Source: Candidatus Limiplasma pullicola
GTDB lineage: Bacteria > Bacillota > Clostridia > Christensenellales > Aristaeellaceae
Assembly: GCA_018710985.1 (NCBI GenBank)
Contig: DVIV01000040.1
Location: 31,930 to 95,929 of the forward strand
Direction: 5' to 3'
Length of the DNA stretch: 64,000 nt
Of the stretch, positions 840-16,282 are shown one piece after another; the first letter of the stretch is position 1; the number at the start of each line of letters is the position of its first letter. The position numbers were made by a program, and so were the translations under genes. The notes below the pieces were generated by a model. That model saw nothing but the letters and a program-made list of their open reading frames with translations. It did not search any database and was not told where the DNA came from.

Positions 840-1235
840 TCAGAGGCCGAAGCCCGAAGAGGCGTCCGTCAGCCACAGGCCATGCAGATTGCAGAATGCA
901 TAGGCGGCCACAACCTGTTCCATGGGAGCCAGCCGGAAGGAAGCACGCGGCGCCTGGCCCGCCGCGAGGTCGATGACGTGGAAGCCGTTTCCGGTCTCCA
1001 GAATGACCCACTCGATGAGGTGTTCCTCCGTCATGGGATGGGCCTGGATGCCGACGGCGATTTCAACCTGATCGCCTGCCTGGTAGATGGCGGGCAGGTG
1101 CTTTTCCGTCGCTCCGTCGCTCAGGCCCGGCACGAGCAAGGTCATGGGAGAGCCGCAGCAGGTCAGGGGAACGCGGCTGTCCGTCAGTTTGTAGGCAATG
1201 TTTCCGCAGTGTTCGCAGATATAGAAATTCATCAT
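840..1235 (-). CDS. dfx: Desulfoferrodoxin-type superoxide reductase
   Basis: N-terminal CEHCG...CC rubredoxin-like Fe site; C-terminal EEHLIEWV and CNLHGLW SOR motifs. Confidence 0.9.
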   Translation of the reverse strand: MMNFYICEHCGNIAYKLTDSRVPLTCCGSPMTLLVPGLSDGATEKHLPAIYQAGDQVEIAVGIQAHPMTEEHLIEWVILETGNGFHVIDLAAGQAPRASFRLAPMEQVVAAYAFCNLHGLWLTDASSGFGL

Positions 1236-1248
1236 GGGAATGTCTCCT

Positions 1249-1815
1249 TTACAGATGGTTGGTTTCGGATGAGATGGCTTCGGCCGTGCGGTGGGAAACG
1301 ACGGCGGTGATCAGCTCGATCACCCCGGTGATCATCAGCACGATTCCAAACAGCCGGATCACGATATGAACGGCCGAGAAGGGGTTGACCATCAGCAGGA
1401 TGCCCAGCAGGGCCGGGAAGAAGCAGGACATGGCAAGGGGAATCATCGCCGGGCTGTCCAGCTCGATGGCCCCAATGGTCAGGGGAACCTTGCCCAGAGC
1501 GTCTACCAGCAGCAGCGCGCCCAGCACCAGCGGCAGGAAGGCCAGCAGGGTTTGCGGCCAGATCAGGGAAGCCACGGTGAAAAGCAGGGGAACGACGGTC
1601 AGGAACAGGTCGCCGCCGCTTGCCAGGCCTTCCTTGCGTCCCTGGATATAGCGCACCAGATGGCTGACTGCGTAGACGGCGGAGCCTGCGGCTAGCGCCC
1701 AGATGAAGAAGGTGCCGCTTGCAACGGGGTTGAGCAGAAGGGGAAGACCCAGAAACATGTAGAGAATGGCGATCCACACGGAAGCGGTCGAGGTCAGGAA
1801 AAAGTAAGACATCAT
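1249..1815 (-). CDS. HdeD-like / DUF308 multi-pass membrane protein
   Basis: 188 aa, six hydrophobic helices, internal DUF308-type duplication (IWALAAGSAVYAVSHLVRYIQGRK / VIELITAVVSHRTAE). Confidence 0.75.
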   Translation of the reverse strand: MMSYFFLTSTASVWIAILYMFLGLPLLLNPVASGTFFIWALAAGSAVYAVSHLVRYIQGRKEGLASGGDLFLTVVPLLFTVASLIWPQTLLAFLPLVLGALLLVDALGKVPLTIGAIELDSPAMIPLAMSCFFPALLGILLMVNPFSAVHIVIRLFGIVLMITGVIELITAVVSHRTAEAISSETNHL

Positions 1816-1878
1816 GAATACCTCCTAGATGATATTGCCCTATTGGGGCGGAGTGGGGAAAAGGAGATGGGTCGAGGG

Positions 1879-2343
1879 TCAGGGGTTCATAACCCATACC
1901 ATGTAGTTCAGATAGCCCGCGAAGCTCACCCAGAGCAGATAGGGCATCTGCATCCAGGCGGCAGCCCGGCTGACGGAATGAAAGGCGAGCATCATCACCA
2001 CGATCATGAACCACATCAGGGCCAGGCACAGCAGGGCGGCCAGGAATTGTCCCGCGCCGAAGAACAGAAGGCTCCAGCAGAAGTTCAGCGCCAGCTGAAG
2101 GCTCCAGGCGACCACCGCGCGGGATGTGCCCGGTCCGCCCTTTCGCACGACCAGCGCCAGCCCCAGTCCCATGAGCACATACAGCACGGTCCATACGATG
2201 GGAAAGACGGCGTCCGGCGGGGTGAGCGGCGATTTGATCAGCAGCGGGTACATACCTTCCAGCCCGGCGCGAGAGAGGGAGGCCGACAGGCTCCCGACCG
2301 TCAGGGCCAGCAGGGGAAAGAGAAGGAAAGCAAGCTTTTTCAT
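1879..2343 (-). CDS. TspO/MBR family tryptophan-rich sensory protein
   Basis: 154 aa; KSPLTPPDAVFPIVWTVLYVLMG, ALNFCWSLLFFG, LPYLLWVSFAGYLN-type TspO motifs. Confidence 0.93.
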   Translation of the reverse strand: MKKLAFLLFPLLALTVGSLSASLSRAGLEGMYPLLIKSPLTPPDAVFPIVWTVLYVLMGLGLALVVRKGGPGTSRAVVAWSLQLALNFCWSLLFFGAGQFLAALLCLALMWFMIVVMMLAFHSVSRAAAWMQMPYLLWVSFAGYLNYMVWVMNP

Positions 2344-2361
2344 ATCAAGCGCCTCCGCTGC

Positions 2362-2979
2362 TCAGGAGTGGCACGCTCTGCGGCCGGACAGGGACTCGGC
2401 AAACAGGGCGATGCCGGAAACCGTCAGATAGATGCCCCAGACGGAGGTCAGGGTGAACCAGCTGACCACCGGGTTGGCCAGAATGACCAGGCTGAGCAGC
2501 AGGTTGAGGATGCCGCTTGCCATGATCCAGCCCGAGCCGGACGCTCTTTGCAGGGCGAAGAAGGTGGAAATCTGGGAAATGCCCGCGGCTATCGTCAGGA
2601 AACCAGCCACATAGGAGAGGCTTGCAATCATCTGCAGGGTGCCGTAGACGCCGCTCAGCCCGCTCCACAGCGTAAAGCCTGAGAACAGCAGCAGCATGAT
2701 GCCGTTTACCAGCGACCAGCCGCTCCGCGCCTCCTTCGGGGCGCGGAAGAAAGCTACGGTTTGGGAAATGCCGTACACCATCAGCCCGGCGGTGAGCAGG
2801 TAGGCCATCCCCACCCCCACCGAAATGGGGGTGAAGAAGGTCAGAAGGCCCAGGACAGCCAACACGATGGAGGCCACGATGCCGGTTTTGCGGTTGACCG
2901 GGCGGGAAGCCGTTTCGGCGCCGCCGGTCGCGCCTGAAGCCGGGGGAAGATCATAGGGGAAAACAGGATGCTTATTCAT
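2362..2979 (-). CDS. HdeD-like / DUF308 membrane protein
   Basis: 205 aa; repeated hydrophobic helices with HdeD-like pattern (AYLLTAGLMVYGISQTVAFFR; VWGIYLTVSGIALFAES). Confidence 0.75.
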   Translation of the reverse strand: MNKHPVFPYDLPPASGATGGAETASRPVNRKTGIVASIVLAVLGLLTFFTPISVGVGMAYLLTAGLMVYGISQTVAFFRAPKEARSGWSLVNGIMLLLFSGFTLWSGLSGVYGTLQMIASLSYVAGFLTIAAGISQISTFFALQRASGSGWIMASGILNLLLSLVILANPVVSWFTLTSVWGIYLTVSGIALFAESLSGRRACHS

Positions 2980-3021
2980 GGGACCTACGCTCCTTTTGAA
3001 AGGGTCGGTGGAGGAAAGAAA

Positions 3022-4797
3022 TCAAACCAGCCGGTAGTGCTCCAGCAATTCCAGAAGGATGGTCCCATCCAGCTTGTCCAGACCGGCGTGCAGCGTCATC
3101 TTGAGCGGCAGGGGGAGCTTCATGTCGGTCAGCTTGCGGCCGTCCAGCAGGTAGTAGGTGGCATTGAGCAGGCAGCGGACATCATAGGCGGAATTGAACA
3201 CCTCGGGCACGCCCCGCTCCACGTCCAACAGGGTATAGACGGCCTCCATGGCGGTGCGCACGGAGTATTCGGTGGTGAAAATCGTGTCCCGTTCCGTCTG
3301 GGCGAACTGGCCCAGGAAGGCGAAGTTTACGCACTCATCGGGGACGACAGCGGGACGGTCGCCGGCGGCGCGGGGCATGAAGAAGGCCGTGACATAGGGC
3401 ATCATGCAGGGCACGGTGCTGGCGCTCTGACGGGCCAGGGTTTCGATCCTGTCTTCCTCAACGCCCAGGTGGTAGAGCCATTCCATGCAGATCTCGGCGC
3501 CGGTGCACTCGCTCATGGGCTTGCCCACATAGTCGCCCGGACGGTCGGGATAGAGGCCGTAGATCCAGCCCACCAGCTGATCTGCGGGCTGCGCCTTGAA
3601 ATGCGGCTGGCGGTTGAAGGTCCAGCTCATCAGCCAGGCGGAGTCGCGCACCGTGACGATGCCTCCGGTCACCACCTTGCCCGAATAGGGATCGCGCTGG
3701 CAGATTTCCCTAACGTAGGGAGCGATTTTTTCATCCAGCAGCGTCACCGTGGCGGATTCCCACTTGGTGGCCTCGATGTCGGAGCAGAATTTCTCGGGAC
3801 GGCCGAACTGAGGATGCTGCAGCGCGATGTTTTTCCACAGGGTCCAGCTTGCGCCTTCGCCGGATGTCACCTCCAGCACGGGCGCGTGCTCGTTGTCGCC
3901 CAGGGCGGAGGACTCCGTGCAGGACCCGTTGGTGACGAACACCAGATCGTTTTCCGTAAGGTCGATGGTCTCTTCCTGCCCATCGCGCATCATGAGAATC
4001 TGATGGGCGATCTTTTTGCCGGGAAGGAAGTGGAACAGCACGTTGGTTACGGTCACGCCGTAGTGAAACTGTACTCCGTTGTCCTGCAGGTAGCGTACCA
4101 GCGGGAGAATCAGCGATTCATACTGGTTGTAGCGGGTGAACTTGAGCGCCGACAGGTCGGGCAGGCCGCCGATGTGATGCAGGAAGCGGTGCAGGTAGAG
4201 CTTCATCTCCAGGGCGGAGTGCCATTTCTCAAAGGCGAACATGGTCTGCCAGTACATCCAGAAATCGGAGCGGTAGAACTCGTCCGTGAAAACGTCGTCG
4301 ATCGTCTTGTCATACAGGGATTCGTCGGTGGCGAAGAAGAGCTTGAGCAGCTCCATGGCGGCCTCGTCGCTGAGGTTAAAGCGGTTGCGGGTGTTGGCGC
4401 TCTCTCCCTGGCGCAGCGTGGCGCGATTCTTGGAGAAGTTGGGATCGTCCTTGTTAAGCCAGTAGAATTCGTCCAGAACGCTGGCGTCCTCCACCTCCAG
4501 CGAGGGAATGGAGCGGTACAGGGCCCAGAGACATTCGTAATGGTTTTCCATCTCCCGGCCGCCGCGGATGACAAAGCCCAGCTCCGGGTTCAGGATGCCG
4601 TCGCAGGCGCCGCCGGGCAGAGCGGCTTCCTCGAGGATGTGGATGCGCTCACCCGCAACCTGTCCGTCACGGATCAGGAAAGCGGCGGCAGCCAGGCTGG
4701 CAAGGCCGGAGCCTACCAGCCAAGCGGATTTCTGATCGGCGTCGTGCGGCTTGCGGGGACGGGCAAAGGCTTCGTAGTTTCCATTGGTGTAGTACAT
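3022..4797 (-). CDS. ohyA: Oleate hydratase
   Basis: 591 aa MYYTNGNYEAFARPRKP...AWLVGSGLASLAAAAFLIRDGQVAGERIHILEEAALPGGACDG; FAD-binding and oleate hydratase family signatures throughout. Confidence 0.95.
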   Translation of the reverse strand: MYYTNGNYEAFARPRKPHDADQKSAWLVGSGLASLAAAAFLIRDGQVAGERIHILEEAALPGGACDGILNPELGFVIRGGREMENHYECLWALYRSIPSLEVEDASVLDEFYWLNKDDPNFSKNRATLRQGESANTRNRFNLSDEAAMELLKLFFATDESLYDKTIDDVFTDEFYRSDFWMYWQTMFAFEKWHSALEMKLYLHRFLHHIGGLPDLSALKFTRYNQYESLILPLVRYLQDNGVQFHYGVTVTNVLFHFLPGKKIAHQILMMRDGQEETIDLTENDLVFVTNGSCTESSALGDNEHAPVLEVTSGEGASWTLWKNIALQHPQFGRPEKFCSDIEATKWESATVTLLDEKIAPYVREICQRDPYSGKVVTGGIVTVRDSAWLMSWTFNRQPHFKAQPADQLVGWIYGLYPDRPGDYVGKPMSECTGAEICMEWLYHLGVEEDRIETLARQSASTVPCMMPYVTAFFMPRAAGDRPAVVPDECVNFAFLGQFAQTERDTIFTTEYSVRTAMEAVYTLLDVERGVPEVFNSAYDVRCLLNATYYLLDGRKLTDMKLPLPLKMTLHAGLDKLDGTILLELLEHYRLV

Positions 4798-4861: not shown

Positions 4862-4909
4862 ATGACGATCATACAGGAAGCGGAAAAGAAAAGAGGTTGT
4901 TTGAACAAC
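4862..4909 (-). promoter_or_regulatory. Putative ohyA promoter: TATGAT -10 (4873-4868) preceded by palindrome GTTGTT-N2-AACAAC (4896-4909)
   Basis: Perfect 6-bp inverted repeat centred 34.5 nt upstream of the downstream end of the -10, i.e. about -41 from a predicted TSS; no good -35 hexamer. Confidence 0.45.
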
Positions 4910-4986: not shown

Positions 4987-5028
4987 TCAAAAAAGCTCCG
5001 CAGCCTGCCGGAAGCAGGGCGCGGAGCA
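4987..5028 (-). terminator. Rho-independent terminator downstream of the Crp/Fnr gene
   Basis: Minus-strand GCTCCGC...GCGGAGC stem followed by TTTTTT; a second stem CCGC..GCGG + TTTTT follows at about 4950-4970. Confidence 0.75.
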
Positions 5029-5044
5029 TCTGAATCAAAACGGT

Positions 5045-5758
5045 TTATTCACTTTTCAGGTTGGGGTCCGGTTCATCGTCCGTAATGGGCATTTCCACAA
5101 GCAGCTCAAAGCGGCTCTTCTCAAACTGAATGAGCCCTTCATCCCGCATCTTGCACAGCTCGTTGGACATGGCGCTGCGGTCGACAAACAGATAGTCGGC
5201 CAGGTCCTGCCGGTTCAGGGGAATGACGAAGGTGCGGCTGCCTGCCTTGTGATATTGGACGGAAAGGTAATCCTGAAGCCGTTCGCGAATGGAACGGCGG
5301 ATGCTGTCCTCCAGCTTGCGGGTCAGGCGTTGGCCCTGCTGCGCCACAGCCACCGCGAGGTTTTGCAGAAAACGGATCTGTGCGGGAACGGTCAGCCGGT
5401 TCTGCCGCAGCAGCGTGTCCACCGTCAGAAAAAGAAGCTCGGTTTTCTCCGTGGCAACGGCGGAAATGTGCAGCCGGTAGCGGCCGATGGCGTTTAGAAG
5501 GCCGATGGCGTCCCCCGGCCCCAACGTATCCATCAGGTTGCTGTTTCCGCTGGCGTCCACATGCGAAAGGTGGAGCCCGCCGGAGAGCAGGATGCCGACC
5601 TCACCCATCGCGTCCCCGTCCCGTACAACCACGGCTTTGGACGGAAATACCTGCCGCCTGGCATGCGTGGCCTCAAGCACGTCCAGCACCTCTCCGTCCG
5701 TCATGTTGCGAAACAACATGCCCGATTTGAGCAGGCCCATATCAAGCGGTCTTTCCAT
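5045..5758 (-). CDS. Crp/Fnr family transcriptional regulator (no N-terminal Cys cluster)
   Basis: cNMP-binding-type N-domain and C-terminal HTH (NRQDLADYLFVDRSAMSNELCKMRDEGLI). ORF extends to 5794, but a TATAAT lies just upstream of that ATG and the ATG at 5758 has upstream GGAG. Confidence 0.9.
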   Translation of the reverse strand: MERPLDMGLLKSGMLFRNMTDGEVLDVLEATHARRQVFPSKAVVVRDGDAMGEVGILLSGGLHLSHVDASGNSNLMDTLGPGDAIGLLNAIGRYRLHISAVATEKTELLFLTVDTLLRQNRLTVPAQIRFLQNLAVAVAQQGQRLTRKLEDSIRRSIRERLQDYLSVQYHKAGSRTFVIPLNRQDLADYLFVDRSAMSNELCKMRDEGLIQFEKSRFELLVEMPITDDEPDPNLKSE

Positions 5759-5963
5759 GGCTCCGATACGCTCCTTGACCCGTGAAGGGACCATTTATCA
5801 CACTGTCATTATAACAGATTTTCCCTGCCCTTCAAAGCCGTGACAAGAACTTTTCCCTGCACACACAAGGGGCCGGGAAGGGTTTTTGCGATCCGGCGCC
5901 AAATGCGTGCCCCATAATCCGGACCCTTCCTGCCGGAGCAAACGATGGACCATGGAGGATGGC

Positions 5964-6198
5964 ATGATTCAGCTCAAACCCATTGACGAGAGCAACTATC
6001 AGAAAATTCTGGCTATGGAGCTGCCACGCGGGCAACACGGCTTTATAGCGTCCCATGCCATTTCGCTGGCGCAGCGACGGCAGCCGGACGGTGCTGCCGC
6101 TGTCCATGGAGATTCACCATGCGGCCGCCGACGGCTTCCACATCGCCCGCTTTTTCCGTGAGGTGGAACAGCTGGCAGGGGAGCTGGAACTGGACTGA
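5964..6198 (+). pseudogene. Remnant: GNAT acetyltransferase N-terminus joined out of frame to a chloramphenicol-acetyltransferase-like C-terminus
   Basis: Frame A MIQLKPIDESNYQKILAMELPRGQHGFIASHAISLAQ (GNAT); +1-shifted frame TVLPLSMEIHHAAADGFHIARFFREVEQLAGELELD* (CAT HHxxxDG catalytic motif). Confidence 0.65.
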
Positions 6199-6284
6199 CG
6201 GCGGCTTGGAGCACGGCGGAGAGAAAAAAATACGCGCATCGCCCAAACGGGCGATGCGCGCTGTTGCCTTGTCAGGCTGGAATC

Positions 6285-14667: not shown

Positions 14668-15900
14668 TTACCGGTGCGCATAAATGCGCATTTCCAGGAC
14701 ATTGCTTTCGGGGTCCCGCAGCTCGCTTTCCAGGTATTCGAAATACGCGCCTGGCGTGACAAAGCCGTTGGGCGGCAGCAGGTTGAGCCCTGTGCCGGCG
14801 GCGATAATCTGCGCCATGGCGCAGCAGTTGGTGCGCATCACGTTGTAAAGGCGGAAAACGCCGCGCCGCACCTTGTAAAACCGTGCGTCAAAGCCGTATT
14901 CCGGACGGCCCTGCGGCGTCCAGGGCTCGCAGTCGTTTTTCAGACGGGTCCGCATGCCGCCCTCCAGCGCGTCGGCGGCTTCCTTGCTCAGGCCAAGCGT
15001 AAAGCCGATCAGCAGCTTGCGCTCGATGGCCTGGCAGTAGGGAATGTAGCCCTCCGTGGGACAGACCAGAATCACGCCGTCCGACAGCGCGCCGAACAGG
15101 CGGTTGCTGCTCTCGTCGTAACAGCCGTAGGAGTAGGTAACGCCCCGCAGGCTGACCACCACGTGCCCGAAGCCGAAGGCCACGTTTTTGCCCAGATGGA
15201 AGACCACTTCCAGCGTTTCGGGCCAGCTTTCGTGCGCGGGCACGGGCTTGGGCACCACGATGTCCTGCGTGAGCGTCGCATACTGTGCGCTGAGCCGCCG
15301 GAGCACCACGGAAGGAAGGAGCGCCGTCAGCAGCACGGGCGGATGAACACGCAGCCGGCTGAGCAAGCGGCTGCTTTCCACGTTGCGGTTGATGAGCACG
15401 CCCAGCAGGTCCATCAGCTGCCACAGGGCATAGACCAGCAGATAGACGCCCGCAAGCCACTGCAGCGCGCGTCCCGCGGAATAGCCCCACAGCAGGCTGA
15501 CGCCTACGGCCAGCGAAACGGCGGCCAGCAGGGCGAATTTCACCTTGCCCCGCTCATGCATCATGGTCAGCTGCACCACATAGCCCACCTGCGCCGCACA
15601 CACCAGCAGCGACCACAGGCCTATCGCCAGGGTCACGCTCTTCATCAGCACGCCGGGGAAGAACGCCGCAAGCAGCCCCGCGCCCAGCGATACCACGCCG
15701 GAAAGCAGCGCGTGCGGATGCGCCTCACGCCGCTGAAACAGCGAGACGGACAGCGCTGCCGCGCCGTTGACCAGAAGCGCGGCGGTGAGCAGCGCATGCA
15801 GCCAGCGCTGCGTAAAACCCGGCGCAAGCAGGATCATCAGACCCAGAGCCGCCATCACCGCGAAGCGCGCCAGCAGGCTCAGCGGCGTCAGGGCCCGCAT
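14668..15900 (-). CDS. DUF308/HdeD-like membrane domain fused to a C-terminal possible papain-like (H...C) domain
   Basis: Six hydrophobic helices then VAFGFGHVVVSLRGVTYSYGCYDE...NVMRTNCCAMAQIIAAGTGL; ORF opens to 15960 but ATG at 15900 has AAGGGG upstream. Confidence 0.6.
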   Translation of the reverse strand: MRALTPLSLLARFAVMAALGLMILLAPGFTQRWLHALLTAALLVNGAAALSVSLFQRREAHPHALLSGVVSLGAGLLAAFFPGVLMKSVTLAIGLWSLLVCAAQVGYVVQLTMMHERGKVKFALLAAVSLAVGVSLLWGYSAGRALQWLAGVYLLVYALWQLMDLLGVLINRNVESSRLLSRLRVHPPVLLTALLPSVVLRRLSAQYATLTQDIVVPKPVPAHESWPETLEVVFHLGKNVAFGFGHVVVSLRGVTYSYGCYDESSNRLFGALSDGVILVCPTEGYIPYCQAIERKLLIGFTLGLSKEAADALEGGMRTRLKNDCEPWTPQGRPEYGFDARFYKVRRGVFRLYNVMRTNCCAMAQIIAAGTGLNLLPPNGFVTPGAYFEYLESELRDPESNVLEMRIYAHR

Positions 15901-15916
15901 GGGACGGGCTGGCCCC

Positions 15917-16282
15917 TTAACCGCGCTGCGCATGGCGGCGGATGGCGTCGAAAGTTTCATCGCTCAAATCGTGCTCGATCTTGCACGCGTCGGCTCGGGC
16001 CACGGATTCGCTCACGCCCAGCCGGATGAGAAAGCTGGTGAGCAGATTGTGCCTTTCCCAGATGCGGCGCGCGATGGCTTCGCCCTGCTCGGTCAGGGTG
16101 ATGCGGTTGTCGTCCCCCATCAGGATATAGCCGTTTTCACGCAGGCGCTTCATGGCAAAGCTCACCGACGGCTTGGTCACGCCCAGGTGAGCGGCGATGT
16201 CCACCGAGCGCGCAGAGCCATGCTCCTCGCAAAACATCAATATGGTTTCAAGATAATCCTCAGCGGATTCATGAATATTCAT
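15917..16282 (-). CDS. DtxR/MntR family metal-dependent transcriptional regulator
   Basis: MNIHESAEDYLETILMFCEEHGSARSVDIAAHLGVTKPSVSFAMKRLRENGYI. Confidence 0.94.
   Translation of the reverse strand: MNIHESAEDYLETILMFCEEHGSARSVDIAAHLGVTKPSVSFAMKRLRENGYILMGDDNRITLTEQGEAIARRIWERHNLLTSFLIRLGVSESVARADACKIEHDLSDETFDAIRRHAQRG

Follow-up and report, generated by a model that had tools for sequence, protein, structure and literature searches.

The locus and its predicted operon

The window analysed here is a stretch of 64,000 nucleotides from Candidatus Limiplasma pullicola (contig DVIV01000040.1), near the start of which lie five co-directional, tightly packed open reading frames on the minus strand, named here ohyA, hdA, tspO, hdB and dfx. 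Upstream of ohyA, and in the same direction, is a gene for a Crp/Fnr-type transcription regulator, with a palindrome between the two genes that is proposed as its binding site. The features, in the order in which they would be transcribed, are as follows:

5808 to 5835, minus strand: sigma-70-like promoter of the regulator gene (TTGAAG, 16 bp, TATAAT), a consensus match only, without an operator
5045 to 5794, minus strand: Crp/Fnr-type transcription regulator (crp), 249 amino acids, cNMP_binding and HTH_Crp_2 domains, start codon uncertain; proposed activator of the operon
4989 to 5027 (hairpin about 4995 to 5027), minus strand: predicted intrinsic terminator of the regulator gene, between it and the ohyA transcript; hairpin plus T6, -28.4 kcal/mol for the stretch, z-score -4.0
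4896 to 4909, minus strand: operator palindrome GTTGTTCAAACAAC, 14 bp, proposed regulator binding site; unique in the genome, with box and spacing kept at ohyA in relatives
4868 to 4873, minus strand: predicted -10 element of the ohyA promoter, TATGAT, exactly 22 bp after the operator
3022 to 4797, minus strand: ohyA, oleate hydratase, 591 amino acids
2362 to 2979, minus strand: hdA, DUF308 membrane protein, 205 amino acids; full-length orthologues at 30-48% identity in the modules of other genomes
1879 to 2343, minus strand: tspO, TspO/MBR-family membrane protein, 154 amino acids
1249 to 1815, minus strand: hdB, DUF308 membrane protein, 188 amino acids, six predicted helices; orthologues at 48-60% identity in the modules of other genomes
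840 to 1235, minus strand: dfx, two-iron superoxide reductase (desulfoferrodoxin), 131 amino acids
795 to 824 (hairpin about 798 to 824), minus strand: predicted intrinsic terminator of the operon, after dfx; hairpin then a short T-run, -27.1 kcal/mol for the stretch, z-score -4.0

A preliminary description of this DNA, made from the sequence alone, had placed the same five genes at these positions, and both the reading frames and, through Pfam, the families are confirmed. The gaps it gave as 43, 19, 64 and 14 bp are indeed small, with exact values of 42, 18, 63 and 13 bp in the order from ohyA to dfx, a counting difference of one. Its observation that there is no obvious internal terminator also stands: the internal gaps that were folded gave structures no better than those of shuffled sequences, and strong hairpins with T-runs stand after crp and dfx, for which reasons the limits it drew for the operon look right. 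Within this unit the sole convincing promoter is the one preceding ohyA, and ohyA-hdA-tspO-hdB-dfx is accordingly laid out as one predicted operon, from that promoter to the terminator after dfx. What had been overlooked was the Crp/Fnr regulator (5045-5794) and the operator in the ohyA promoter.

Sequence comparison identifies the ohyA product as an oleate hydratase (MCRA, EC 4.2.1.53) that is predicted to hydrate oleate. It matches Pfam MCRA PF06100 (E 2.5e-222, 739.5 bits) and, over its full length, the NCBIfam oleate hydratase model NF010584 (904 bits against a curated cutoff of 567), and keeps the catalytic Glu82 and Tyr201 (S. aureus numbering; PMC7948970) at identical positions. The tspO product matches Pfam TspO_MBR PF03073 (E 4.7e-40, 137.1 bits, cutoff 24) as well as TspO chains in the PDB. 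Both hdA and hdB encode DUF308 proteins according to Pfam, which upholds the family part of the earlier 'HdeD-like' label; orthology to the acid-stress protein HdeD itself is rejected, as the HdeD equivalog model (cutoff 189) gave hdA only 47.5 bits and did not match hdB. The predicted model of hdB is a six-helix bundle with no significant match in the PDB, the top hit, the acetate permease SatP (E 0.2, probability 0.95), being a lead only. Dfx matches Pfam Desulfoferrodox and Desulfoferrod_N, both above cutoff, and when aligned to 1dfx retains the Cys4 desulforedoxin site (C7, C10, C26, C27) and the metal ligands of the His4Cys superoxide reductase centre (aligned residues E44, K45, H46, H66, H72, C115, H118); against the TIGR00320 equivalog it scored 107.3 bits, below the cutoff of 146.9. 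Elsewhere in the window there is a third DUF308 protein (14668-15960, minus strand, 430 amino acids), in which the DUF308 membrane half (PF03729) scores 37.2 bits and the C-terminal domain has no Pfam match.

A Crp/Fnr regulator and its proposed operator

The regulator carries cNMP_binding (PF00027, E 9.9e-12) and HTH_Crp_2 (PF13545, E 2.6e-8) domains, both above cutoffs. A Foldseek search with its predicted model returned CRP, HcpR and CprK, which confirms only the Crp/Fnr fold; the model has a predicted local distance difference test score (pLDDT) of 69.8, is confident only in the ligand domain and is poor in the helix-turn-helix part. HcpR is the closest solved sequence, and solved relatives are only 15-22% identical. 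Orthologues are readily told apart from paralogues by a gap in bit score (312-371 bits against 158 or less), share 61-71% identity with the window protein in 12 other genomes and 97% in the sister species, and hold the recognition region VDRSAxSNELCxMRDEGL invariant.

The operator centre lies 29 bp before the -10 element, and hence at about -41.5 from a start site placed from sequence, which is the position of a class II activator. With its palindrome near -41.5 and fixed spacing to the -10 element, the ohyA promoter is predicted to be of this class, and its poor -35 region is what would be expected of a class II activated promoter. The GTTGTTCAAACAAC palindrome is the single such site in the 2.78-Mb window genome with one mismatch allowed, and no second operator was found there. 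Across 21 promoters the 22-bp distance from operator to the TAN3T -10 element is invariant, as are GTTGT, AAC and the TA...T of the -10, an invariance due partly to selection by that same pattern, whilst the gene families behind these promoters were not so selected. A search of ten genomes for box, spacing and -10 element gave 24 matches, against 7 for a reversed-pattern control. At the ohyA promoters of relatives within the OhyA clade the box stands at the identical 22-bp spacing (degenerate in G064), and among some 60 OhyA loci outside the clade only one marginal box-like match was found. The logic of the operator is well supported from sequence, and the regulator presumably binds it and activates transcription.

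As to what the regulator senses, neither a cyclic nucleotide nor an iron-sulphur centre is favoured. In CRP proteins of the cyclic AMP (cAMP) type, exemplified by that of E. coli, the phosphate-binding cassette has a conserved Glu and an Arg-Ser/Thr pair; the corresponding stretch of the window regulator is GLLNAIGRYRLH; its orthologues have L, V or E at the place of the Glu, and the pair is absent. The protein has a single cysteine, C214, in the DNA-binding domain, and the N-terminal iron-sulphur cysteine cluster of an FNR-type oxygen sensor was not found. Lack of conservation at the canonical cyclic-nucleotide residues, and the lone cysteine, disfavour both cAMP and iron-sulphur signals. The ligand domain has a conserved YRLH segment to which, we speculate, an anionic ligand might bind.

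Recurrence in other gut Clostridia

Orthologues of the regulator, together with the box and genes of the module, recur in 12 other genomes of gut Clostridia, mostly Oscillospiraceae, which with the window genome (G000) and its sister species (G007) make up 14 module genomes; G152, G177, G378 and G420 joined this set when regions of other genomes with the regulator were searched. Cultured carriers of the module include Flavonifractor sp. An92 and Fournierella massiliensis DSM 100451. The frequency of regulator orthologues was 2/61 genomes in the window's own order, and 5/394 and 1/392 genomes. OhyA proteins at 75-84% identity occur mainly in Oscillospiraceae (Flavonifractor, Gemmiger, Fournierella) and in one Lachnospiraceae bin, at loci that carry orthologues of the regulator and DUF308 genes. 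All but one of the genomes with a regulator orthologue carry an ohyA of the boxed clade (the copy in G420 being deleted; the exception is G177).

The regulator is present in 14/14 module genomes (with a frameshift in G066), hdA and/or hdB also in 14/14 (hdA truncated in G063), and ohyA in 13/14, including the G420 copy with its internal deletion. tspO lies next to the regulator or behind the operator in G000, G007, G061, G062, G063 and G177, and in the last four the operator stands directly before tspO or hdA-tspO. Other recurring members are a PF06541 membrane protein, an Abhydrolase_3 esterase, a bacterial PH-domain (bPH) protein and a surface protein with leucine-rich repeats (LRR) and S-layer homology (SLH) domains. 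Gene orders are shuffled and the genes sometimes occupy separate loci: operator matches other than those at ohyA precede tspO (G062, G063), hdA-tspO-esterase (G061), hdB or bPH-hdB (G064, G065, G066) and PF06541 genes (G060, G062, G063), and in G067 hdA adjoins the regulator with the boxed ohyA elsewhere. The predicted regulon that is scattered in relatives is, in the window genome, collected behind one operator.

Two earlier suggestions can be judged against this distribution. The integrated module holds in part, since ohyA, the two DUF308 genes and tspO recur in the 12 genomes with one regulator orthologue and one operator, which supports them as one system beyond adjacency; its 'plus oxidative stress' component is weak, as dfx belongs to the module in only three of the 14 genomes (G000, G007 and G420, in the last again directly after hdB). 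A search for conserved ohyA-DUF308-tspO-DUF308-dfx synteny failed to extend it, the exact order being confined to the window genome and a single sister species. The Dfx tree is compatible with the window and G420 copies being orthologous or with dfx having been recruited twice; Dfx is tentatively regarded as a weaker member of the module rather than core, perhaps a lineage-level addition.

Several further observations concern these gene families. The G420 ohyA beside the regulator (L259:11003-11836, minus strand) has an in-frame deletion of roughly residues 210-560 behind an intact operator, which could be an assembly error; the same genome has a second OhyA elsewhere (62%). On contig C24 (L185, L006/L007) of a congener, G012, two oppositely oriented genes for distant OhyA-like proteins (35-39% identity) adjoin or overlap; that genome also has a 59% OhyA. 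The large leucine-rich-repeat surface protein adjoins the regulator at L009:3283-5880, with S-layer homology domains and the operator in the shared upstream region, and has counterparts in L259, L260, L261 and L012. Hcp genes in G063 (L247) and G062 (L252) have a related palindrome upstream at the identical -10 spacing, probably the site of a different, HcpR-like Crp/Fnr regulator.

Origin of the locus

The sister species, with proteins 97-100% identical, is the one other member of the genus to have the unit. In another congener (G015; L215) ppdK is followed directly by spoIIID and mreB, an empty site at which the window holds gene debris, including the end of a chloramphenicol-acetyltransferase (CAT)-like gene. 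This debris lies between ppdK and the regulator (5886-6205, plus strand): the CAT-like C-terminus matches PF00302 (E 1.4e-6), and a different frame encodes the N-terminus of an acetyltransferase-like protein, MIQLKPIDESNYQKILAM, with no Pfam match. The boxed intact OhyA proteins form one clade (Shimodaira-Hasegawa-like approximate likelihood ratio test (SH-aLRT) 100), in which the window pair groups with Flavonifractor (98), nested inside Oscillospiraceae. Given this nesting and the empty ppdK-spoIIID site of the congener, lateral acquisition from an Oscillospiraceae relative, presumably in that direction, is the simplest reading.

Proposed function and alternative explanations

On balance, the locus was probably acquired laterally and probably serves, under control of the regulator, an inducible response to unsaturated long-chain fatty acids, encoded on a five-gene transcript under class II activation. 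The regulator would be made from its own promoter and terminated separately; on receiving its signal it would bind the single palindrome, whose centre lies some 41.5 bp ahead of the ohyA start site, and turn on this one transcript from the class II position. OhyA would then detoxify unsaturated long-chain fatty acids, both DUF308 proteins and TspO might transport, bind or stabilise fatty acids or other hydrophobic compounds within the membrane, and Dfx could clear superoxide that arises when the membrane is damaged or oxygen is present. The DNA itself shows the gene identities, the limits of the operon, the operator with its fixed spacing, the recurrence of regulator, operator and gene set, the empty site and the phylogeny; we infer DNA binding, activation, a fatty acid as the signal and what DUF308, TspO and Dfx do. 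Several points weigh against this scheme: the ligand domain of the regulator was not matched to any fatty-acid sensor, so that the signal is a guess from the enzyme regulated; the functions of DUF308 and TspO are unsettled or disputed; and G177 has regulator, operator, hdA, tspO and esterase without ohyA, so ohyA is not indispensable to the system. A bolder version, a regulon of gut Clostridia in which unsaturated fatty acids, or the hydroxy products made from them, are sensed directly by the Crp/Fnr protein, which then switches on oleate hydratase, DUF308 and TspO, is a tentative idea that we consider doubtful.

Crp/Fnr proteins often sense redox, HcpR is the nearest solved sequence and TspO is a porphyrin-binding family, and with dfx in three module genomes one might instead picture a redox, oxygen or nitrosative-stress regulon, its regulator sensing oxygen, nitric oxide or heme/porphyrin, TspO handling porphyrins, Dfx superoxide, and OhyA being one flavoprotein target. 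The lone C214 without an iron-sulphur cluster, and modules dominated by ohyA, esterase and membrane proteins with Dfx missing from 11 of 14, make this unlikely. The recurrence of the Abhydrolase_3 esterase and the PF06541 membrane protein would suit a role for OhyA in production, with hydroxy fatty acids either released as signals to host or competitors or used for membrane modification, DUF308, TspO and PF06541 proteins exporting or handling the product, and the alpha/beta hydrolase freeing fatty acids from esters. PMC12548398 reports that 10-hydroxystearate, once released, is toxic to other bacteria and cites a benefit of sequestration for lactobacilli; both esterase and PF06541, however, lie outside the window operon, no dedicated exporter was identified, and such a role seems distinctly improbable. 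That the five genes are chance neighbours or hitch-hikers on a mobile segment, without shared function, would fit an exact order confined to two sister species and the debris at the insertion edge. This is rejected as very improbable indeed, for in other genomes members of these families stand behind a common operator at separate loci, which chance neighbourhood does not explain.

Significance and comparison with known systems

The preliminary description knew of no account of this combination as one system, and none was found in the open literature searched: no paper there links oleate hydratase with HdeD or TspO, or HdeD with TspO (subscription literature lay outside the search), and hits for DUF308 with fatty acid seemed, by title, to be mainly DUF308x prefix matches. 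That a dozen other gut bacteria have these genes together with this regulator and DNA switch points to a shared response that we found described nowhere in that literature. Some host receptors are targets of the hydroxy fatty acids produced by oleate hydratases of gut bacteria (PMC11004285, PMC8612147), and for the control of these enzymes in gut Clostridia, on which no description was found in searchable papers, the present analysis supplies a concrete candidate regulator, operator and partner set. Operators shared at independent loci connect DUF308 and bacterial TspO, two long-puzzling membrane families, with lipid chemistry and so open their function to direct tests; were direct sensing of fatty acids to prove true, lipid handling would be the first physiological role for either.

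Amongst known systems, E. coli HdeD, an acid-resistance membrane protein, shares the DUF308 family with hdA and hdB, of which hdA falls far under the equivalog cutoff and hdB has no match, and which lack an hdeA/hdeB context. CprK, HcpR and other Crp/Fnr regulators that do not use cAMP resemble the window regulator in fold, in a palindromic box at the class II position and in a ligand domain not built for cyclic nucleotides, and differ in box and gene set, at only 15-22% identity. OhyA detoxifies unsaturated fatty acids in Staphylococcus and lactobacilli (PMC7948970, PMC11429459). The S. aureus enzyme is orthologous, with identical catalytic residues; neither FarR (of the FarR/FarE pair) nor unsaturated fatty acid, however, controls its gene robustly (PMC11669549), and it has no described DUF308, TspO or Dfx partner. 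Close in plan is the OhyA-FarE-TetR system of vaginal lactobacilli, in which ohyA, farE and a TetR gene are induced by oleate (PMC11429459): both systems join an oleate hydratase to a dedicated regulator family and membrane proteins, with a TetR-type gene and the MmpL-type efflux pump farE in the lactobacilli, and here a presumed Crp/Fnr activator, DUF308, TspO and Dfx in an operon without FarE.

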